Shown here: positions 11,771 to 57,102 of the stretch, piece by piece
Numbering within the stretch: the stretch's first letter is position 1
Layout: each line of letters begins with the position of its first letter
Assembly (NCBI GenBank): GCA_026414765.1
Contig: JAOAIJ010000043.1
Span: forward strand, 1-64,000
DNA from: Clostridia bacterium
Lineage (GTDB): Bacteria; Bacillota; Clostridia; Acetivibrionales; DSM-27016
DNA length: 64,000 bases
Direction: 5' to 3'
The notes under the pieces: model-generated
The model's input: only the letters and a program-made list of their open reading frames with translations
The model's database searches: none
What the model was told of the DNA's origin: nothing
Translations under genes and position numbers: made by a program

Positions 11771-12979
11771 ATGCGTATACTTATGCTATCCTGGGAATAC
11801 CCTCCTAGAATAGTCGGTGGAATTTCCAGGGTTGTGCATGATTTAGCACAAAAGCTTGGGGAAAATGATAATGAAGTTCATGTTGTTACCTGTTGGGAGC
11901 CAGGCTCTAAAGAAGTTGAAATGGATAAAAAAGTTATGGTTCACAGGGTGCATACATATGATATTAATGCAGGTAATTTTATTAACTGGGTACTGCAGCT
12001 AAATTTTGCTTTAGTAGAATATTCCGTTAAGCTTATTAACGAATTTGGAAAGTTCGACATAATTCATGCTCATGACTGGATTGTTGCATTTGCTGCCAGA
12101 GCTATAAAACAATCTTATTCAATACCCCTTGTATCAACTATTCACGCAACTGAATACGGGAGGAATTGGGGTATACATAATGATATACAAAGCTATATCA
12201 GCAGTGTAGAATGGTGGCTTACCTATGAATCATGGAAAGTTATTGTAAATAGTGAGTATATGCGAAATGAAGTGAGAAATATCTTTCAGCTGCCCGAAGA
12301 TAAGATACACACAATACATAATGGTGTAGATTCTGACAAGTTTAAGGGTTATGAAAGAGATATTGGTTTCAGAAGAAACTTTGCAGCAGATAATGAAAAG
12401 ATTGTATTTTTTATTGGAAGGCTTGTTAATGAAAAGGGTGCTCATGTACTGATTGATTCAATACCCAAAATTGTTCAGTACTATAACGATGTTAAGTTTG
12501 TTATAGCAGGCAAAGGTCCTCAGTTTGAGTATTTAAAAGGGAAATCCTTGGCAATGGGTATTGCGCATAAAGTATATTTTACAGGATATATAAGCGATGA
12601 TGACTTGTGTAAATTATACAAATGTGCGGATGTTGCTGTGTTTCCAAGTTTATATGAGCCTTTTGGTATAGTAGCTCTTGAAGGAATGGTAGCGAATGTA
12701 CCGGTTGTAGTATCTGATACAGGTGGTTTGGGGGAAATTGTTAATCACGGTATTGACGGGATGAAATCATATTCGGGTAATGCAAATTCTCTAGCTGACA
12801 GTATTATGGAGATATTGTTCAATCCGGACAAGGCGGAAGAAATGAAAGAAAAGGCTTTGGAAAAGGTAAACAGGATATATAATTGGGACGTGATATCAAA
12901 ACAGACAATGGATGTATATAGCGAAGTACTGAAAGAAAGTAAGGGTGCTAACTGGAAGACTCCTGAAATCAAAGGCTAA
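11771..12979 (+). CDS. GT4 family glycosyltransferase (alpha-glucan synthesis)
   Basis: 402 residues, start ATG behind GAGGAG. It has the GT-B double Rossmann fold: N-terminal WEYPPRIVGGISRVVHDLA, the HAHDW motif at about 97-101 and the C-terminal GRLVNEKGAH donor-site motif, ending with the ExFGIVALE retaining-enzyme signature (EPFGIVALEGM). The closest described functions are bacterial glycogen or glucan synthases of family GT4, consistent with its divergent GH57/DUF4912 partners. It uses a nucleotide sugar, probably ADP- or UDP-glucose (inference). Confidence 0.9.
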   Translation: MRILMLSWEYPPRIVGGISRVVHDLAQKLGENDNEVHVVTCWEPGSKEVEMDKKVMVHRVHTYDINAGNFINWVLQLNFALVEYSVKLINEFGKFDIIHAHDWIVAFAARAIKQSYSIPLVSTIHATEYGRNWGIHNDIQSYISSVEWWLTYESWKVIVNSEYMRNEVRNIFQLPEDKIHTIHNGVDSDKFKGYERDIGFRRNFAADNEKIVFFIGRLVNEKGAHVLIDSIPKIVQYYNDVKFVIAGKGPQFEYLKGKSLAMGIAHKVYFTGYISDDDLCKLYKCADVAVFPSLYEPFGIVALEGMVANVPVVVSDTGGLGEIVNHGIDGMKSYSGNANSLADSIMEILFNPDKAEEMKEKALEKVNRIYNWDVISKQTMDVYSEVLKESKGANWKTPEIKG

Positions 12980-13445
12980 CTGAAGCGGGACTGAATGTTT
13001 TCAGAAGGGAGGCTGGGAAGATATTGAATAAGGCTATGTACTATTGTTTGACATTTATAGCCGTGTATCGATATGTTTGTAGGCCTCTTATTCCGAATAA
13101 CCCAATAAAAACCTATATTTAAAAAAAGATATTTGTTTTTATTGGAAATATGCTATAATAATAAAGTTGCATATAAACAGGGAATAGATGGATAATCGTC
13201 AGGCTGTTTTTCAGCTGATATATTGATATCAATATCTTTTATAATTTTGTACATATTTTATATGGTATTCTATAGTAACATTTCAGAAATATTGAATCAG
13301 ATATTTTACTCAACAGTAAACTAGGTGTAAAGTATAAGATTTAATTAGAATATTATTTATAGATATCAGAATTTATTTTACAAAAACGTACGGATAATCA
13401 GTTTTTTGTAAATGCATACATAAGAAAAAAATTGGAGGTTAAGAA
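12980..13445. promoter_or_regulatory. rnj upstream region with extended -10 promoter and long inverted repeat
   Basis: An extended -10 element, TGC plus TATAAT at 13154-13159, with a weak TTTGTT 16 bp upstream, lies about 290 bases before the RNase J start, implying a long 5' leader. An 11-bp perfect inverted repeat, CCAATAAAAAC at 13102-13112 and GTTTTTATTGG at 13135-13145, covers the -35 region. A self-complementary ATTGATATCAAT box lies inside the leader. No gene found. Confidence 0.45.
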
Positions 13446-50037: not shown

Positions 50038-50060
50038 TCCTGCATTTGCAGGATTATTTT
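50031..50060. terminator. bidirectional terminator
   Basis: Thirteen-base perfect stem AAAATAATCCTGC / GCAGGATTATTTT with an ATTT loop. It overlaps the ends of both converging genes. Confidence 0.85.
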
Positions 50061-51819
50061 ATGTTCTGAGTTTGTTTACGGTTTCCTCATCAGGTGTTAC
50101 TATCATTGTTTTAAAATTGTCATAAATAACCATACCGGGTTTTGCACCGCTGGGTTTTTTTACATTTTTTACTGCGGTATAGTCAACAGGTACGCCTGAA
50201 GACATCTTTGCCTTACTATGATAGGCTGCTAACATACCGGCTTCTTCAAGGGTTCTGCCGGGTATTTCATGCTGGAGCTTTTTTATGATAACATGAGAAC
50301 CAGGTATGTTTTTTGTATGAAGCCAAATATCATTTGATGAAGATAATTTTAATGTTAGCTGGTCATTTTGTTTGTTGTTTTTTCCTACAAATATGTCAAA
50401 ACCGTCACTTGATTTGAAGTGTAGGGGTTCAGAACCTGATTGGCGTTTCTTGCTATTTTGCTTTCTTTTTAAAGAGTAATATCCTTGTTCTATAAGTTCT
50501 TCCCGGATCTCTTCAATTTCCTGTAGAGAGTTGCAGTTATCTAAAAGCAACAACACGCTTTCCAGGTAATCAAGTTCACCCCGGGTATCTTCCATCAGCT
50601 TGCTGGTATAGCTATAAGCACTTTTGGCTTTTGTATACTGCCTGTAATACCTTTGTGCATTTTGCTGTGCTGAGAGATTTTCATCAAGTTTTATTTCCAG
50701 ATATTCACTGTCTTGGCTGTAATAGTTCAGAAGCGAAACTTTATCGGTATTCGCCGGAATACAGTAAATGTTTGCGGTTATGAGTTCACCATATAGTTTC
50801 AAATTTTCTCTGTCTGACACTTCTCTGAGCTTTTCCTGCTGCAGGGCAAGTTTTTTATTACACCGATCCATATTATTATTAAGCACTTTGTACAAATCGG
50901 CTTTTTTATGCTTCTGCCTTTCAATATTGTCCCTTGTAGAATAAAAAATATCAAGTGTTTTGCTTATAGAGTCAATATACTTTATATTTGGATGTTGCTT
51001 TATCGGCAGACAATGAAAATCAATAGGTTTGCCTGGGGCGGCTGCACCATCCATAATTATACATGGTGAAAAGTTGTCTTGTTTTATTTCGTCGATTATA
51101 TCGCTGAGTACAGATTCCAGCCTTGAAACTTCTTCTGCTAAAAGCCTGTTAATACTATTTTTCCCATCTACGCATGAACGGTAGCAGACTTCAGAGCACA
51201 GAAGGGGACTGAATCCCTTGAGATTGTTAAGCAGATACTTTTCAATGCTTACTAAAGGAGTCTCAGCGCTAATCCTAAAAAACTTATCAGTATCAAGCTC
51301 CAGAGGATTGGTCTTATTCTGGGACGGTGGCAATACATAAGTTCTGGCAGGCATTACTTCCCTTACGCTGCTGACTTCATTATCAACATGTTTGATGGAA
51401 TCGATTATTCTATCCTCACTTGTGGTGAGTATAATATTGCTGTGCCTTCCCATTATTTCAATAATAAGCTTCTTGACCGACAGATCTCCTAACTCATTCA
51501 TTGCTTCTATATTAATGGTAATTATCCGCTCAAAATCATGAAAATCAATACCTACAATTCTTCCCCCCGAAAGATGCTTCCTTAAGAGCATGCAGAATAC
51601 AGGAGGATTAGCCGGATTTTCCTTTGAAACCCAGGTAATATGTACCCTGGGATAGTTTGCATTTGCACTGAGAAGAAGTTTTAGGTTTTGGCCTTGCGCT
51701 CTTATATTCATTAAGATTTCATCTTTTTCAGGCTGAAATATTTTTTCTATCCGGCTGCCGACAAGGGTATCTGATAGTTCCTTTGATATACATTTAGTAA
51801 CTATTCCGTCAAAAGGCAA
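50059..51819 (-). CDS. rqcH: ribosome quality-control protein RqcH (NFACT family)
   Basis: 586 residues with the NFACT layout: NFACT-N (MPFDGIVTKCISKEL to EIMGRHSNII), a central coiled coil (about 270-420) and the C-terminal NFACT-R domain (FDIFVGKNNKQNDQLTLK, DIWLHTKNIPGSHVII, VDYTAVKNVKKPSGAKPGMV). RqcH binds split 50S subunits with peptidyl-tRNA and adds Ala tails. The described catalytic Asp97-Arg98 pair reads Glu97-Arg98 here (DFERII), a change seen in some relatives. Monocistronic. Confidence 0.94.
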   Translation of the reverse strand: MPFDGIVTKCISKELSDTLVGSRIEKIFQPEKDEILMNIRAQGQNLKLLLSANANYPRVHITWVSKENPANPPVFCMLLRKHLSGGRIVGIDFHDFERIITINIEAMNELGDLSVKKLIIEIMGRHSNIILTTSEDRIIDSIKHVDNEVSSVREVMPARTYVLPPSQNKTNPLELDTDKFFRISAETPLVSIEKYLLNNLKGFSPLLCSEVCYRSCVDGKNSINRLLAEEVSRLESVLSDIIDEIKQDNFSPCIIMDGAAAPGKPIDFHCLPIKQHPNIKYIDSISKTLDIFYSTRDNIERQKHKKADLYKVLNNNMDRCNKKLALQQEKLREVSDRENLKLYGELITANIYCIPANTDKVSLLNYYSQDSEYLEIKLDENLSAQQNAQRYYRQYTKAKSAYSYTSKLMEDTRGELDYLESVLLLLDNCNSLQEIEEIREELIEQGYYSLKRKQNSKKRQSGSEPLHFKSSDGFDIFVGKNNKQNDQLTLKLSSSNDIWLHTKNIPGSHVIIKKLQHEIPGRTLEEAGMLAAYHSKAKMSSGVPVDYTAVKNVKKPSGAKPGMVIYDNFKTMIVTPDEETVNKLRT

Positions 51820-52029
51820 TTTTTACACCCTTTCTAAATAACGCACACTTGTGTGCTCAGATGTGAAGCTATGCTTCGTTTTATAGTATAGCATTTAGAG
51901 CCTTATATATCAAAGGGAAGTTAGAGATATAAATTTATTTGTATTGTTTATCGGCTTTTTAGATGATAAAATTATAAAATCCCGGTTTAAACTATAAAGT
52001 CGGGCTTGATTCATAAAATGAGGTGTTTT

Positions 52030-52320
52030 ATGGTTATAGGTGTCTGCAGGATAGTATTGCATATGGATGAGGTTTTTTCATTAAAGGAAAAAAGGCATAT
52101 TGTCAAAAGTATAGTTGAAAGGCTTAAGTCCAGATTTAATGCATCTGTGGCTGAGGTTGACATGAATGACACATGGAATAAAGCTGTTATAGGTGTTTCA
52201 TGTGTATCAAACGAAGCTGGGCATGCAGACAGTATGATGTCAAGTATTGTAAATTTCGTGGAAAATGACGGACGGGCAGTGCTTGTTGATTATTCTACAG
52301 AGACAATACATGTTGATTGA
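52030..52320 (+). CDS. DUF503 protein
   Basis: 96 residues from ATG 52030 with a TGAGGTG site (the frame extends 8 codons further without one). DUF503 pattern: MVIGVCRIVLHMDEVFSLKEKRHIVKSIVERL, then SVAEVDMNDTWNKAVIGVSCVSN. Related to YlxP, which lies next to infB in other Firmicutes and may act near RbfA; here the gene stands alone before the tRNA region. Function not established. Confidence 0.88.
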   Translation: MVIGVCRIVLHMDEVFSLKEKRHIVKSIVERLKSRFNASVAEVDMNDTWNKAVIGVSCVSNEAGHADSMMSSIVNFVENDGRAVLVDYSTETIHVD

Positions 52321-52413
52321 AAAGATTTTTATTGACTCTTAATTTGAAAATATATTAAAATATAATAGTTGGGTTGCATTATTTTTAATATAGGAAATAT
52401 CGGATTAATATAT

Positions 52414-52462
52414 GGGGCTATAGTGCAGCTGGGAGAACACTAACGCTGTAACTACAGCCCCA
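52414..52462 (+). other. tRNA-like mini-unit A (49 nt)
   Basis: Begins GGGGCTATAG like a tRNA-Ala 5' half with a D-arm-like stretch (GTGC AGCTGGGA GAAC) and ends CTACAGCCCCA, closing a 6-bp acceptor-like stem GGGGCT / AGCCCC with an A where the discriminator base would be. The T arm and most of the anticodon arm are missing. Probably a tRNA deletion derivative. A related unit is at 54763. Confidence 0.45.
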
Positions 52463-52527
52463 AAGATAATTGAAAAGCAGGTAATAATAAAAATTGCATA
52501 AGTCCCCGGAAATGGGGAAATTTGGGG
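52431..52527 (+). repeat. 97-bp duplicated spacer, copy 1
   Basis: Identical in length and 93 of 97 bases to 54778-54874, from the middle of the mini-unit to the first four G of the full tRNA. It includes a small hairpin, TCCCC / GGGGA, just upstream of the tRNA. Confidence 0.8.
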
Positions 52528-52598
52528 GTATAACTCAGTGGGAGAGTGCAACACTGGCAGTGTTGAAGTCGAGGGTTCAAGTCCCTCTATCTCCACCA
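52524..52598 (+). tRNA. tRNA-Ala(GGC)
   Basis: 75 nt, full cloverleaf: acceptor GGGGGTA / TATCTCC with the alanine identity pair G3-U70, D arm ACTC-AGTGGGA-GAGT, anticodon arm CAACA-CTGGCAG-TGTTG (anticodon GGC), T arm GAGGG-TTCAAGT-CCCTC, discriminator A and encoded CCA. Followed by a terminator at 52608. Confidence 0.92.
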
Positions 52599-52607
52599 AA
52601 TAAAATG

Positions 52608-52650
52608 AAACAGAAGGAATGAACTCGCAAGGTTTAAGTCCTTCTGTTTT
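52608..52650 (+). terminator. terminator of tRNA-Ala
   Basis: Stem AAACAGAAGGA / TCCTTCTGTTT with a 20-base loop, then TT and GCC. Placed 10 bases after the tRNA CCA end. Confidence 0.65.
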
Positions 52651-52704
52651 GCCATTTTTATAACATTCTTAGCACGAGTAATTATTAAAATGAGAAGGAT
52701 AAAA

Positions 52705-53460
52705 ATGAATGATATCTTAGCAGAGGCTTTTTGGGCTTTTGATCATATTTTAATATCTAAGGGCTATGATAACCCAGCACCACACAGGCATCTTGCCAAA
52801 CATTTGATTTTCAGTGTTAACAATAAATTTGAATGCGTGGTAGAAAACGCAAGCTTTTATTGCAAAGGCGTGTGCATTGATTCAAATGTCGAGCATACAA
52901 TAGGTCGAAATGATGGGAATATACTTGTATTTCTGTTTGATGAAACAAGTGTACTGGCAAGGGAATTAAGTGTTAACTATCTAATGGGTAAGCCTTTTTG
53001 TGTATTGGATGAAAAACTATCTTCTAAAGTAAGTACGGTTTGGGAAGAAACCCATAAAGATTCAAAGAAGCTGGATGAAGCTATCTTGTCAGTTTGTCAG
53101 TTAAAGCGGAGTTGTCGTATAAAATACGATCATAGAATTCACCAACTACTGGAATCGGTTTCACAAATGGAAGGCATATATCAGAATGCAATCAGTACAC
53201 TTTGTGATGTAGTTTATCTGTCCCGGAGCAGACTGTCTCATCTGTTCAAACAACAGGTCGGTGTCTCGCTAAGTAGTTATTTGGTGTTTGAAAAAATGAG
53301 AAAAGCGTACACGTACGTTGCAACAGGCGAAAATATTACCATCGCAAGCGTTCGTGCAGGCTTTGACAGTCCTTCACACTTTTCAGCTGTTTGTAAAAGA
53401 ATGTTTGGGTTGTCATTTACAGATTTCAGAAAAATGACTTTACTTAAAGAGGTAATGTAG
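52705..53460 (+). CDS. AraC-family transcriptional regulator
   Basis: 251 residues from ATG 52705 behind AGAAGGA. The N-terminal ~145 residues are a cupin-like sensor (PHRHLAKHLIFSV near residues 26-38). The C-terminal ~100 residues form the double helix-turn-helix of AraC: LSRSRLSHLFKQQVGVSLSSYL and AGFDSPSHFSAVCKRMFGLSFTDFRK. It is 69 bases before the alpha/beta hydrolase gene, which it probably regulates. It follows the intact tRNA-Ala. Confidence 0.9.
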   Translation: MNDILAEAFWAFDHILISKGYDNPAPHRHLAKHLIFSVNNKFECVVENASFYCKGVCIDSNVEHTIGRNDGNILVFLFDETSVLARELSVNYLMGKPFCVLDEKLSSKVSTVWEETHKDSKKLDEAILSVCQLKRSCRIKYDHRIHQLLESVSQMEGIYQNAISTLCDVVYLSRSRLSHLFKQQVGVSLSSYLVFEKMRKAYTYVATGENITIASVRAGFDSPSHFSAVCKRMFGLSFTDFRKMTLLKEVM

Positions 53461-53529
53461 CATCTATTTGAAAGTTTTTCATATTACCACAAAGTATAAT
53501 TAGGTAAAAGCTTGTGGAGGATATTAATT

Positions 53530-54708
53530 ATGAAAAACGATAAAATAGAGTTCAAAATTGGATCATACAATTTAAACTCGCAGTCGAATTTAAATTATCA
53601 ATTGAACCGTACAATTATGTGGGGGGGCGGGGAACTTAGCGATATTGAGGAAATTGCTCATGGCATATATGATAGTATAGCTTGGAAACGGGAACTCATA
53701 GCTATTGGCGATAAAGCATTTTCTGAGGGTAGAATCAGGGAAGCCATCGCATATTACCGTATGAGTGAATTTTTTATGTATGATGGAGATGCAGATAAAC
53801 AGAAATATTACAGTCTTGCTACAGAATTGTTTTATGACTATTACAAGAACTTCTTTGTTGATAGTACCGTTGTAAGTTATGAAGTACCCTTTGAAAATAT
53901 TACACTTCCCGTAATGTATGCAAAAGCAAAGGGGATGAAAAAAGATACCATTCTATTGCATGGTGGAAATGACTCATATTTTGAGGAGTTTTTCTTGCCG
54001 ATGCTGTATTTAGCGGAAAATGGTTTTGAGGTTTATCTCTTTGAAGGGCCTGGACAAGGTGGTGTTATGAGAATACAAGGAAGACACTTTTCCTATCAAT
54101 GGGAGAAACCTGTGAAAGCAATCCTTGACTTTTTTAGGCTAGACGATGTAACGATTATTGGAGCATCTCTCGGGGGAATGCTTGCACCCCGTGCGGCAGC
54201 ATTTGAGAAAAGGATTAATCGGGTTATAGCATGGTCCGTCTTCCCTAACTTTATGGACATCCTTATATCTACTCAACCACCTAGATTACAAAAATTCCTT
54301 AATTTTTTAGTCAAGATGAGACTTGGGTTTGTGATTAATACAGTATTTAATTTTAAGCTGAAAAGGGGAGATGAATTGGTAAAATGGGGACTACGGCATG
54401 GAATGTATGCTTATGAGGCAAAAACACCTTGCGAATATATTTTTAAAATGAGCCAATACCAAATGATAGATATTGCTCCGCTTATTGAACAGGATATGCT
54501 AATTATTGGTGCCAACAAAGACCACTTTATTGATTACCATATGGTCAGTAAAGAAATCGATGTGCTGAAAAACGTTAAATCCCTTACTGTACGAATATTT
54601 ACTGACAAGGAAACCGCGGGGGCTCATTGTAATGTGGGGAATGTTAAGTTGATTTTAGATACAGTTATGAGTTGGGTTGCAGGGGTGAAAGATAGAGTAA
54701 GTGGATAA
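53530..54708 (+). CDS. alpha/beta hydrolase
   Basis: 392 residues from ATG 53530 with GGAGG upstream. An N-terminal helical extension of about 120 residues is followed by the alpha/beta hydrolase core: oxyanion region LLHGGNDSYFEE, nucleophile elbow GASLGGM (Ser), Asp in IGANKDHFID and His in AGAHCNVGN. The large N-terminal part fits the FrsA/pigment-hydrolase-like group of esterases. No signal peptide, so cytosolic. Substrate unknown. Probably a pair with the upstream AraC regulator. Confidence 0.88.
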   Translation: MKNDKIEFKIGSYNLNSQSNLNYQLNRTIMWGGGELSDIEEIAHGIYDSIAWKRELIAIGDKAFSEGRIREAIAYYRMSEFFMYDGDADKQKYYSLATELFYDYYKNFFVDSTVVSYEVPFENITLPVMYAKAKGMKKDTILLHGGNDSYFEEFFLPMLYLAENGFEVYLFEGPGQGGVMRIQGRHFSYQWEKPVKAILDFFRLDDVTIIGASLGGMLAPRAAAFEKRINRVIAWSVFPNFMDILISTQPPRLQKFLNFLVKMRLGFVINTVFNFKLKRGDELVKWGLRHGMYAYEAKTPCEYIFKMSQYQMIDIAPLIEQDMLIIGANKDHFIDYHMVSKEIDVLKNVKSLTVRIFTDKETAGAHCNVGNVKLILDTVMSWVAGVKDRVSG

Positions 54709-54762
54709 AACGGGGATTGCTGTTAAGTATACGCAAATCATAAAATTAACAAGGAAAAATTA

Positions 54763-54806
54763 GGATGATTACTCAGTGGGAGAACACTAACGCTGTAACT
54801 ACATCC
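54763..54806 (+). other. tRNA-like mini-unit B
   Basis: Same core as mini-unit A from GGGAGAACAC onward, but the 5' end reads GGATGATTACTCAG and the 3' end ACTACATCC, so the outer stem is GGATG / CATCC instead of GGGGCT / AGCCCC. Both sides of the stem differ between copies while pairing is kept. Confidence 0.4.
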
Positions 54807-54874
54807 CCAAAGATAATTGAAAAACAGGTAATAATTAAAATTGCATAAGTCCCCAGAAATGGGGAAATTTGGGG
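54778..54874 (+). repeat. 97-bp duplicated spacer, copy 2
   Basis: Four substitutions and no gaps relative to 52431-52527. It ends on the first four G of the decayed tRNA-Ala copy. Confidence 0.8.
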
Positions 54875-54946
54875 CTATAGTGCAGTTGGGAGAGCACCAC
54901 AATGGCATTGTGGAGGCCGAGAGTCTGAGCCTCTTCGTCTCCACCA
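54871..54946 (+). pseudogene. decayed tRNA-Ala(GGC), copy 2
   Basis: 76 nt with anticodon arm CCACA-ATGGCAT-TGTGG (anticodon GGC) and CCA end, but the acceptor GGGGCTA / CGTCTCC has two mismatches (positions 5 and 7), the D stem has one, and the T loop reads TCTGAGC in place of the canonical TTCRANN, losing the T55-C56 contacts. The 5' half resembles mini-unit A and the 3' half a different tRNA: a chimera. A terminator follows. Confidence 0.65.
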
Positions 54947-54950
54947 AAAC

Positions 54951-54981
54951 AAAAAACTTGTCGAAAATGTCGAGTTTTTTT
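54951..54981 (+). terminator. terminator behind tRNA-Ala copy 2
   Basis: Ten-base stem AAAAAACTTG / CGAGTTTTTT (one T-G pair) ending in a T-run, five bases after the CCA. Confidence 0.7.
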
Positions 54982-55055
54982 GTTATAATTTTTATTATCA
55001 TAATTATTAATTGTTCTGTTTGAAGACCATACTTGATAAAATCTGGGGGTAAAGC

Positions 55056-55877
55056 ATGTTTGATGTTGTATATAAATTACATTCTCCTCATAAACTTTTA
55101 AAACCATATATACATAGGATTTGGATATTCGAAAGCAAATATGGAATTCCTAATGATGATATGAAAATGATAACCCCCAATGGAGAAGTAAAATTAATCA
55201 TCATGTACAGGAGTAATGTGAATTGCAGAATTGAAAATTATTCATGGGATTTTTCAGAACATTCATTTGCTATTATAGGACAAACAACAAAACCTGCAAT
55301 CATTGACCCGCAAGGCTGTTTTGGAACGATTGGAGTAGAATTTAGACCATTTGGAGCTGTTAATTTCTTCAGTATACCACTTTATGAACTCACAAACCAG
55401 TTTTATCACGCAGATGAAGTTTTAAACAGGATTGGCTGTGAACTTCAGAAGAGAATTGCAGATTCGAAATCCGTGGAAGAAAAAATATTTATTCTCGAAA
55501 GCTTCCTGCTTAATCAGCTGTTTTCATCTAGGAAAGCTGCTTCCTTTATCGAGTATGCAGCAAATCAGATCACCTTGAAAAATGGGGTAATCAATATTAG
55601 CGAATTGATTACCGATACAGGTTACTCAAAACGTCATTTTGACAGAAAATTTAAGGAACACATAGGGGTAAGCCCAAAGGAACTTGCAAGGGTTCTCAGA
55701 TTCCAAGCGTTTTATAGCAAGATTGCTATGAATAAAAATGATATTCGAGATCAAATGTATGATTTTTATTATGATCAGTCCCACTTTATCAAAGAATTTA
55801 AAAGGTTTACAGGATTGACTCCTAAGGAATATTTCAAACAGGATAACAATTTTGCAAAAACGTTTTTTGAAGGTTGA
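55056..55877 (+). CDS. AraC-family regulator with DUF6597-like N-terminus
   Basis: 273 residues, start ATG behind GGGGG. The N-terminal ~150 residues follow the pattern of AraC proteins with a DUF6597-like sensor (KPYIHRIWIFESK, MITPNGEVKLIIMY, GTIGVEFRPFGAVNFF). The C-terminal HTH reads DTGYSKRHFDRKFKEHIGVSPKEL and DFYYDQSHFIKEFKRFTGLTPKEY. It leads the DUF5655 and YciI genes, which are its likely targets, and follows the second tRNA-Ala copy. Confidence 0.9.
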   Translation: MFDVVYKLHSPHKLLKPYIHRIWIFESKYGIPNDDMKMITPNGEVKLIIMYRSNVNCRIENYSWDFSEHSFAIIGQTTKPAIIDPQGCFGTIGVEFRPFGAVNFFSIPLYELTNQFYHADEVLNRIGCELQKRIADSKSVEEKIFILESFLLNQLFSSRKAASFIEYAANQITLKNGVINISELITDTGYSKRHFDRKFKEHIGVSPKELARVLRFQAFYSKIAMNKNDIRDQMYDFYYDQSHFIKEFKRFTGLTPKEYFKQDNNFAKTFFEG

Positions 55878-55956
55878 AATGTCCCTTTTTTACAATTTTT
55901 TAAGAGAAATTTGTGGTAAATTTATTTTATCTTTAAAGAAAAGGGGTCAGAATATA

Positions 55957-56511
55957 GTGGATAAAAAAACGGAAGATACTATGATTGAAAACTTATATAA
56001 GAACACAGGAAAGACAATAGAAGAATGGGTAATAATTATAAATGAAAACAAGTCTCCGAAGCATAGTCAATCAGTACAATTCCTTAAGGAACAATTCGGA
56101 TTAGGGACTTTCTATGCAGACTTAGTTGTGCATAAAGCCAATGGAACAGATTCTGGTTCTGTTGATTCGGAAACACTTATCGAAAATCAGTATAAAGGTA
56201 AAGAAAACTTAAAACCTATTTATGATGAGTTGCTATTAAGAATAATGAACTTTGGTGACGATATAGAGATTGTGCCCAAAAATACATATGTCAGCCTTCG
56301 CAGGAAGAAACAATTCTGCTGTTTGAAACCGGCAACAAAAACTAGATTTGAAATTGAGTTGATTATTAAAGGTCAAGAACCTCATGGTATTCTTGAATTG
56401 ATATCAGGAGCAGGTGCCATGTGCACACATAAGATAAAAATAGAATCACTAAGTCAAATAACAGAAGAAGTTGTTAATTGGATAAAAGTCGCTTATTCAA
56501 AAGCAGCTTGA
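55957..56511 (+). CDS. DUF4287/DUF5655-type protein
   Basis: 184 residues from the GTG at 55957 with AAAGGGG ten bases upstream; the frame continues upstream into the AraC gene without a ribosome site, and an ATG at 55981 is a second choice. N-terminal DUF4287-like segment (NLYKNTGKTIEEWVIIINE, LKEQFGLGTFYADLVV), C-terminal DUF5655 segment (YDELLLRIMNFGDDIEIVPKNTYVSLRRKKQF). Cytosolic. Such proteins often sit beside AraC or YciI-type genes as accessory cargo; biochemical role unknown. Confidence 0.8.
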   Translation: MDKKTEDTMIENLYKNTGKTIEEWVIIINENKSPKHSQSVQFLKEQFGLGTFYADLVVHKANGTDSGSVDSETLIENQYKGKENLKPIYDELLLRIMNFGDDIEIVPKNTYVSLRRKKQFCCLKPATKTRFEIELIIKGQEPHGILELISGAGAMCTHKIKIESLSQITEEVVNWIKVAYSKAA

Positions 56512-56576
56512 AAAGTAGCTACAGAGAATTAGAAATATTTTGTTAAGAATAAAAAATGAAGGAGAGTGCATTTTAG

Positions 56577-56879
56577 ATGCAAAAATCAAGTGAATTCATT
56601 TATCTCTTTAAACCCAAGCGGGAGAACTTTTTGCAGACTATGACACAGGAAGAAATGGCAGCTTTTGGAGGACACTCAGAATATACGGAAAAATTATTTG
56701 CAGAGGGAAAGGTTATTCTAATGGGCGGATGCCTTGACGGTGCATATGGAATAGTTATCTTTAGGGCTGAATCAACTGAAGAAGCTCAACAAATTTTTAA
56801 AAATGACCCAGCAGTAAAAGCAGGAATAGTTCATGCCGAACTGCATCCTTACCAGGTTACAGCAAGGCAAGGTTGTTAG
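56577..56879 (+). CDS. YciI-family protein
   Basis: 100 residues, start ATG behind AAGGAGAG. YciI-like dimeric ferredoxin-fold: EFIYLFKPKRENFLQTMTQEE, LFAEGKVILMGGCLDGAYGI, FRAESTEEAQQIFKNDPAVKAG and ELHPY at the end. The catalytic His/Asp pair of dehydrochlorinase relatives is only partly visible (HAELHPY). Probably co-transcribed with the DUF5655 gene 65 bases upstream. Confidence 0.87.
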   Translation: MQKSSEFIYLFKPKRENFLQTMTQEEMAAFGGHSEYTEKLFAEGKVILMGGCLDGAYGIVIFRAESTEEAQQIFKNDPAVKAGIVHAELHPYQVTARQGC

Positions 56880-56904
56880 AAGAAAATTATCATAAGTAAA
56901 AAAT

Positions 56905-56979
56905 GGGATACAATACCAGAGGGAGCGCATCACACTGGCAGTGTGGGGGTCAGGGGTTCGAATCCCCTTAGCTCCACCA
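56905..56979 (+). pseudogene. decayed tRNA-Ala(GGC), copy 3
   Basis: 75 nt in the same register as the intact copy. The 3' half is sound: anticodon arm TCACA-CTGGCAG-TGTGG (GGC), T arm AGGGG-TTCGAAT-CCCCT, acceptor 3' strand TAGCTCC, A and CCA. The 5' half is broken: acceptor GGGATAC mismatches at positions 4, 6 and 7, and the D stem (TACC / GCGC) does not pair. It looks as if a foreign 5' end replaced the original. Confidence 0.6.
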
Positions 56980-56990
56980 TACTTTAAGGG

Positions 56991-57017
56991 ACTCGTCGGA
57001 AACGGCGAGTTTTTTTA
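56991..57017 (+). terminator. terminator behind tRNA-Ala copy 3
   Basis: Stem ACTCGTCG / CGGCGAGT with a GAAA tetraloop, then seven T. Confidence 0.85.
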
Positions 57018-57046
57018 TTGACAATATGTTTTGACTAGTGTATAAA
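57018..57046 (+). promoter_or_regulatory. sigma-A promoter of the PadR gene
   Basis: TTGACA at 57018-57023, 17-bp spacer, TATAAA at 57041-57046. An AT-rich imperfect dyad GTATA / TATAC (57040-57059) overlaps the -10, a plausible PadR self-operator. Confidence 0.65.
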
Positions 57047-57102
57047 TATAGTAGTATACATTTATAGTGTTGCACTATTATAGTAAGAATAAAGGAGGAT
57101 AT

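Follow-up and report, generated by a model that had tools for sequence, protein, structure and literature searches.

Tandem insertions without a visible integrase appear to occupy the D-loop of a tRNA-Ala(GGC) gene in Clostridia and to bring replacement tRNAs

The window analyzed here is a stretch of 64,000 nucleotides (nt) from a Clostridia bacterium (GenBank assembly GCA_026414765.1, contig JAOAIJ010000043.1, positions 1 to 64,000 of the forward strand). It is contig C43 of the genome that we call G000, which belongs to the same family as genome G001. At 52414-56979 it holds a tRNA-Ala(GGC) locus, in which a complete tRNA gene and several tRNA-like fragments are separated by short sets of protein-coding genes. 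We consider it likely that the locus consists of tandem islands, without an integrase of their own, that entered a resident tRNA-Ala(GGC) gene by site-specific insertion at its D-loop and that each brought a replacement tRNA. At the level of sequence, the support for this is the matching halves of a split tRNA gene, a working tRNA shared across families, tails shared with units in other genomes, inverted right arms in three other genomes, and cargo that varies from locus to locus.

In the mechanism that we propose, mobile DNA would enter the resident tRNA gene site-specifically at the D-loop, with GGGAG as the core. Reading from the left, the insert would consist of a left arm (LE, here also called the tail), a spacer of ~60 nt, a complete foreign tRNA-Ala(GGC) and cargo genes. 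The window would contain two such units in tandem, and the halves of the resident gene would for that reason now lie 4.5 kb apart. Since the imported tRNA is the only tRNA-Ala that we found in the assembly, the insertion would be harmful without it. The enzyme would probably be a large serine recombinase that acted in trans or has since been lost, and such units may still be mobile today.

The evidence for a split gene begins with a mini-unit at 52414-52461 (mini-1). Over its first 22 bases, up to the D-loop GGGAG, it has the sequence of a standard tRNA-Ala 5′ half, and the remainder is not tRNA. The matching 3′ half is found at 56926-56979, in the same orientation, within the right-hand tRNA-like unit (copy 3). 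When 52414-52435 is joined to 56926-56979, all pairs of the acceptor stem (7/7) and of the D-stem (4/4) are formed. We combined five 5′ halves with three 3′ halves, and full 7 + 4 pairing was obtained in 3/15 combinations: mini-1 with copy 3, the complete tRNA (copy 1) with itself, and the 5′ half of the middle unit (copy 2) with copy 3. The joined mini-1 and copy 3 sequence is identical to the intact tRNA-Ala(GGC) of G014 at 73/76 positions. ARAGORN accepts this pair, and it does not accept copy 3 with its own 5′ arm. From the complete pairing and the match to G014, a resident-type tRNA-Ala(GGC) gene looks to have been cut at the D-loop. The crossover falls at GGGAG, and not in the anticodon loop, the T loop or the T-acceptor junction. 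Decayed tRNA copies were rejected as the whole story, since the second half of the mini-unit is non-tRNA and recurs in other families.

Judged by its sequence, the working tRNA (copy 1, 52524-52598) looks imported. It is identical over 75/75 positions to the tRNA-Ala of G028 and to that of G043, which belong to two other families, and G001, from the same family as the window's genome, carries a different tRNA-Ala. Exact sharing of a tRNA between families is also seen elsewhere, between G040 and both G001 and G034, and between G026 and G012. Among the 55 tRNA matches above the cut-off in its own assembly, which were re-read with ARAGORN, copy 1 is the only tRNA-Ala; a UGC isoacceptor may lie in unassembled rRNA operons. 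After the promoter-like site upstream of the split gene (Table 1), the next such site on the + strand is listed only at 53160, so the imported tRNA, which would lie just downstream of the resident promoter, is probably transcribed from it. The pattern scan behind these sites gave 22 in the region against 18.6 in shuffles, and overall was not above chance. Of 11 spacers that were folded, most but not all have a small hairpin ~5-7 nt ahead of the imported tRNA (52497-52523 in the window).

To place the locus among other genomes, we scanned for units with two sequence models, one for each tail type (I and II). Model matches that cover only the tRNA 5′ half (~17-24 bits) are left out of the unit counts, and in the larger scans only a small number of candidates was scored for each genome (14 to 27 in several), so that their counts are lower bounds. 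Full units were found in 10/58 genomes of the order, the window's genome counted. Type I units occur in G000, G011, G019, G030 and G034, and type II units in G019, G026, G040, G043, G049 and G051. Class-wide, type II was found in at least 5/391 genomes, three of them outside the order, and type I in the window's genome only, again as a lower bound. Type II extends to at least 5/295 genomes in the order of G290, at least 1/200 in the G290 family and at least 1/22 in the order of G371. G017, which has a short tail, was omitted from the unit alignments; the second unit of G049, which has a third tail type, was omitted from the tail models and from the tail-swap folding test described below. Where type II units were read with their flanks, a tRNA-Ala 5′ end follows ~60 nt after the tail; in G599, G670, G019 and G645 it comes after further units or, in G645, after a truncated tRNA. 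Genus g5 offers occupied and empty sites side by side: among the eight of its 11 genomes that were read, four have uninterrupted tRNA genes and four are occupied. The resident 5′ half is common to them (with two changes in G043), and the sequence diverges just past GGGAG. Searched with an intact g5 tRNA as query, G040 yielded bases 1-26 and 31-99 at a distance of 1.46 kb from each other. Two further arrangements were observed. In G645:C17 (L238, first 600 bases) a tRNA-Ala(GGC) is preceded by a gene-free tandem array of three different mini-units and a truncated tRNA. In G670 the native tRNA-Ala is intact, and 5 kb away lie two units with a second tRNA-Ala, behind which come defence-like and conjugation genes (L235 and L236 are the G599 and G670 loci).

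The right ends of the insertions bear on the enzyme involved. An inverted copy of the tail was found at 4/7 right ends examined (G049 twice, G026 and G011), with 0/300 shuffles reaching the score in each case. These copies precede the tRNA 3′ halves in G049, G026 and G011, which were found with the intact g5 tRNA query; the further copy in G049 is flanked by another unit and, on its opposite side, by Wadjet and toxin-antitoxin genes. With the dyad centre taken between the A and the G of GGGAG, the outer GGGG begins 26 nt from the centre in the four inverted arms, where the value for G026, whose right-end core reads GGGGA, assumes that GGGGA corresponds to GGGAG. The same motif begins 21 nt out in all five resident-type tRNA 5′ halves tested, and the type of copy 1, whose D-loop is one base shorter, would give 20 nt. 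In the LE tails (n=18), CCCC ends at 26 or 27 nt in 10 and CCC at 25 or 26 nt in four more; those of G049m1, G051, G371 and G011 have neither at these distances. At 4/7 right ends, the window's not among them, pseudo-palindromic attP-like arms surround a short core, and the distance of the outer motif from the centre is 5 bp greater in attP than in attB. For serine integrases, Rutherford and colleagues (PMC3783163) report that the zinc-domain motif of attB is closer to the centre than that of attP, by 5 bp. By this analogy of layout (inverted arms, short core, and a 26 versus 21 nt spacing that matches the 5-bp shift), the attachment sites point to a large serine recombinase, which probably made the insertion. 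A tyrosine integrase that used the D-arm as its core site is an unlikely author of the junction. In its favour, the majority of tRNA-targeting integrases belong to the tyrosine family according to parts of PMC4383910, and a decayed frame beside the tRNA 3′ end in G290 resembles an integrase C-terminus (by eye). However, inverted arms ~26-29 nt from the centre together with the 5-bp attP/attB shift fit serine integrases, and the tRNA subsites described in those parts of PMC4383910 omit the D-loop. In G049, the same terminator and flank are found behind the displaced tRNA-Ala 3′ half and behind the tmRNA gene (L532, L541).

The original prediction for this locus was that a tRNA-Ala(GGC) gene had copied and mixed itself through repeated recombination at tRNA sequences. 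The observations on which it was built hold up. The 97-bp spacer given as 93/97 identical is an ungapped match of 89/93, from the GGGAG of the mini-unit to the base before the tRNA, plus the next four bases, GGGG in both; the 97 bases immediately ahead of copies 1 and 2 match at 90/97. The best of ~20,000 random window pairs reached 47/97, and this spacer repeat is our repeat family D1. Tail and spacer of the second unit are identical to those of the first at 84/88 positions. The reported exchange of 5′ halves is real, with 21/22 matches between mini-1 and copy 2 and 16/21 between copy 1 and the second mini-unit (mini-2). The 5′ half of mini-2 gives full pairing in no combination, yet ARAGORN accepts it with the 3′ half of copy 1. 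The conclusion drawn from these observations fares less well. An identical counterpart of the intact copy occurs in other families, the mini-unit combines a resident-type half with a foreign tail, and the resident-type 3′ half that fits it lies in copy 3, none of which is what simple self-copying describes. Nor does the recombination look merely homologous: the relatives show a defined D-loop GGGAG site with inverted arms, which suggests that it was site-specific. We also considered a broader version, in which homologous recombination or gene conversion among tRNA-Ala copies, with acquired tRNA-bearing fragments and no site-specific enzyme, made the locus, and we regard it as improbable, the least favoured of the alternatives. 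The exchanged 5′ halves, the failure to find a recombinase, the hybrid 3′ tRNA of G040 and the duplicated terminators and flanks of G040 and G670 (both by eye) are what it would lead one to expect; near-constant-length foreign tails in distant families, four inverted right-end copies and a fixed spacing are not.

The mini-unit might instead be a functional RNA, an insulator hairpin in which the orphan 5′ half is held in a pairing with the tail and so would not misfold the tRNA downstream. For the first unit of the window, the folding energy is -25.1 kcal/mol (z -4.76), and hairpin-like shapes were noted at junctions. Tested against shuffled tails, 19 units have a mean z of -1.48, and their own tails do better than swapped ones (p 0.033). 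However, several units fold no better than their shuffles, the permutation within tail types gives p 0.084, and a single enzyme that binds both half-sites would in any case call for similar arms. We think it doubtful that the unit works in this way, and the weak statistics led us to reject the hairpin as the sole explanation; as an addition, it is compatible with site-specific insertion into the D-loop.

The original prediction had also raised the possibility of a hotspot for gene capture here, with recombination at tRNA sequences and no integrase in sight, and this is supported by the comparison of cargo. Homologues (E 1e-8) were found in 16 related loci for 0/5 of the window's cargo proteins, while a tRNA-Ala-like 3′ half is present in 12/16 of these loci. 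DUF503 adjoins the tRNA-Ala in 4/16 (L033, L155, L156 and L147), and an NFACT gene is present in 12, seven of which were fetched with the NFACT gene. Cargo differs between loci and often includes defence genes, the comparison covering the genes themselves rather than their enrichment over background. G049 has a Wadjet type III system and a Phd/ParE pair beside its units. Beside the unit of G026 lies a type I restriction system, with a Phd antitoxin behind the right end. In G011 the right arm stands between an AbiLi/AriA-like ATPase, on its left, and a type IV restriction enzyme. A DUF4062 protein is encoded beside the unit in G040, and an SpbK-like TIR protein and a KAP NTPase beside those in G670. 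In G001 (probably the same as L033, Anaerobacterium chartisolvens; reverse strand of L033, ~12,440-13,300) a Phd/ParE pair lies between a tRNA-Ala(GGC) and a second tRNA-Ala copy that lacks its first bases. None of the cargo in the window itself is recognisable as defence.

Several observations weigh against site-specific insertion as set out above. ARAGORN accepts 8/15 of the half combinations, so that acceptance alone fails to single out the resident pair; the 5′ half of copy 2 pairs with copy 3 as well as that of mini-1 does, and its resident-like sequence requires a later conversion. Some units have no clear cargo or are bare tandems, and G599 has two nearly identical 117-bp units. No inverted tail was seen at the right ends of G040 and G001, where 44/300 and 58/300 shuffles, respectively, reach the score. 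The right arm of the window (56899-56920) was not recognised either, its score against the tails being reached by 25/300 shuffles; against the resident 5′ half it matches at 13/22, which 609/20,000 shuffles reach. As the original prediction had noted for the stretches between the tRNA copies, the open reading frames (ORFs) there include no integrase, and no recombinase gene was seen in the inserts, among the ORFs of the window or those of other loci read by eye. In 70 loci or regions around PF07508 genes, which are part of the 112 PF07508 matches in 14 genomes, no D-loop arm scored above 17.2 bits. This arm scan recovers left-out type II ends at 24.7 and 30.2 bits and is weak for type I, since the window's own tails, when left out, score 9.8 bits, below the noise, and type I tails not already seen would be missed. 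Tail-pattern scans of viral contigs gave no true attachment site, with one match in one scan, set aside as unrelated from its genes, and none in another; looser palindrome patterns in viral contigs gave only negative tail scores among the matches listed. A BLAST search of phages and plasmids with a type II unit gave matches that, among those listed, all lay within the tRNA part or a few bases around it.

One candidate recombinase was examined and rejected. In G012 (L155:9237-10733), phage-like genes accompany a 498-aa serine recombinase (from its Pfam domains) that overlaps the 3′ end of a tRNA-Ala(GGC), and its viral relatives L250 and L251 have a palindrome around TGGAG just past the gene (by eye). 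The overlap is with the tRNA 3′ end and the palindromes center on TGGAG, not GGGAG, so we do not take this enzyme as the actor. The window's own genome encodes a large serine recombinase on another contig (G000:C52, L593:1881-3421), on the opposite strand, which overlaps the 3′ end of tRNA-Leu(TAG) by 22 bases. Another recombinase gene was observed near tRNA-Gln(CTG) (L286).

Table 1 Features of the tRNA-Ala(GGC) locus and its left flank, in window coordinates.
Feature	Position	Strand	Basis or remark
NFACT-type gene	50059-51819	-	with DUF503 marks left flank of tRNA-Ala(GGC)
DUF503 protein, left-flank marker	52006-52320	+	PF04456 on 52033-52320
Promoter-like site TTGACT-18-TAAAAT, 10/12	52332-52361	+	upstream of split tRNA; pattern scan
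Resident-type tRNA-Ala(GGC) 5′ half, acceptor 5′ strand and D-arm to GGGAG	52414-52435	+	putative attB half-site, left half of junction
Foreign tail, type I left arm (LE), right half of junction	52436-52461	+	model R2, 51.2 bits; window included in model
Spacer, small hairpin at its end 5 nt before tRNA	52462-52523	+	folding, alignment
Complete replacement tRNA-Ala(GGC), read as imported	52524-52598	+	ARAGORN; RF00005, 64.7 bits
Cargo 1: AraC-type regulator	52690-53460	+	PF12833
Cargo 1: alpha/beta hydrolase	53512-54708	+	PF00561
Second hybrid junction, left half: decayed 5′ half, copy 1-like (16/21)	54762-54782	+	repeat D4
Second type I tail (LE)	54783-54808	+	model R2, 43.2 bits; sequence itself in model
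Second tRNA-Ala, decayed, with resident-like 5′ half	54871-54946	+	3′ half 91% identical to that of G017
Cargo 2: AraC-type regulator with DUF6597	55056-55877	+	domain search
Cargo 2: DUF4287/DUF5655 protein	55957-56511	+	domain search
Cargo 2: YCII-domain protein	56577-56879	+	domain search
Stretch left of right-hand GGGAG, weakly like a tRNA 5′ half	56899-56920	+	no recognisable inverted LE copy
Core and displaced resident-type tRNA-Ala(GGC) 3′ half	56921-56979	+	93% identical to 3′ part of intact G032 tRNA

The layout of the locus is summarized in Table 1. One intact tRNA-Ala(GGC) had been described, and copy 1 is indeed the sole tRNA gene by both ARAGORN and the Rfam gathering scores. The description of two further copies as decayed is borne out by their scores, 28.2 bits for copy 2 (54871-54943) and 21.3 bits for copy 3 (56907-56976) against the RF00005 cut-off of 29; it needs amending in that copy 3 holds the resident-type 3′ half, and the mini-unit is a hybrid junction, not a decayed tRNA. 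That each copy has its own terminator can be made out by eye only: the pattern scan gave no terminator directly behind any of the three copies, although the hairpin and T-run that follow copies 2 and 3 form a shared repeat (D6). Matches to tmRNA and to an antisense RNA near 56942-57087 fall under the gathering scores and were taken as likeness to the tRNA 3′ end. The sequence GGACACTTGATAAA, or close variants of it, occurs ~60-100 bases behind tRNA-Ala genes in several genera (~55025-55042 in the window; also L005, L006, L012, L019 and L022), and is perhaps the end of an IS3-type element near the terminator.

Taken further, the units could be small cassettes of one class, with no integrase and frequently with defence or toxin-antitoxin genes, that use a serine-recombinase-type site in the D-loop, bring a whole replacement tRNA under the resident promoter, accumulate in tandem and are moved in trans, much as in an integron, with the tRNA as the obligatory first gene of the cassette. 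We put this forward tentatively, as an idea that may well prove wrong. The frequent occurrence of apparent D-loop insertions near anti-phage defence genes in other genomes suggests a little-known route by which bacteria collect genes. If this is true, island finders that require an integrase and a minimum length would miss such insertions, and the D-loop would join the known integration subsites. It would also help to explain swaps of tRNA genes between bacterial families, and would give a handle on the spread of integrase-less defence cassettes.

A literature search that covered titles and abstract openings, and few subscription papers, returned nothing with this combination of D-loop site and replacement tRNA. 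Several known systems share part of it. In Islander-type tRNA islands, as described in parts of PMC4383910, a tRNA gene is likewise split by an insert, a complete tRNA stays and the far end is recognizable by a displaced fragment, which is a 5′ one in 159/3919 islands; such islands are also known to form tandem arrays. In these islands, however, a fragment carried on attP restores the split gene, the integrase is carried along, and the subsites are the anticodon loop, the T loop and the T/acceptor junction, whereas in the window the site is the D-loop, a whole replacement tRNA appears to be supplied and no integrase is seen. The same passages, from 2014, held serine integrases as not known at tRNA genes. 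Rare cases are reported in sections of PMC3218068, namely actinomycete integrative and conjugative elements (AICEs) of Mycobacterium in tRNA-Leu and the phage phiRSM1 in tRNA-Ser; phiRSM1 uses the tRNA 3′ end, and those sections give no D-loop case. Archaeal attB sites can reach over the D-loop, according to passages of a review (PMC8371274). The MabA1 mycobacterial prophages are comparable in that they restore a tRNA gene at its 5′ end, not its 3′ end, but they supply the 5′ end alone and use a tyrosine integrase, going by a statement on the prophage clusters in PMC8092301. Cis-mobilizable elements (CIMEs), from what sections of PMC3146451 say of them, are flanked by attachment sites, have no integration genes and accrete beside other islands. 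They differ in that no helper element for the D-loop site was found in the viral-contig scans or the PF07508 loci scanned, and the mobility of the window's units is presumed. The nearest parallel is provided by the ssrA islands of Dehalococcoides, also described in sections of PMC3146451, which stand in tandem at one essential RNA gene and are associated with the serine recombinase DsiB, with many islands lacking an integration module. There, the target is a tmRNA gene, cut in the T-loop and flanked by 20-bp direct repeats; in the window, it appears to be a tRNA-Ala gene, cut in the D-loop and provided with a full replacement tRNA, with no integration module found.

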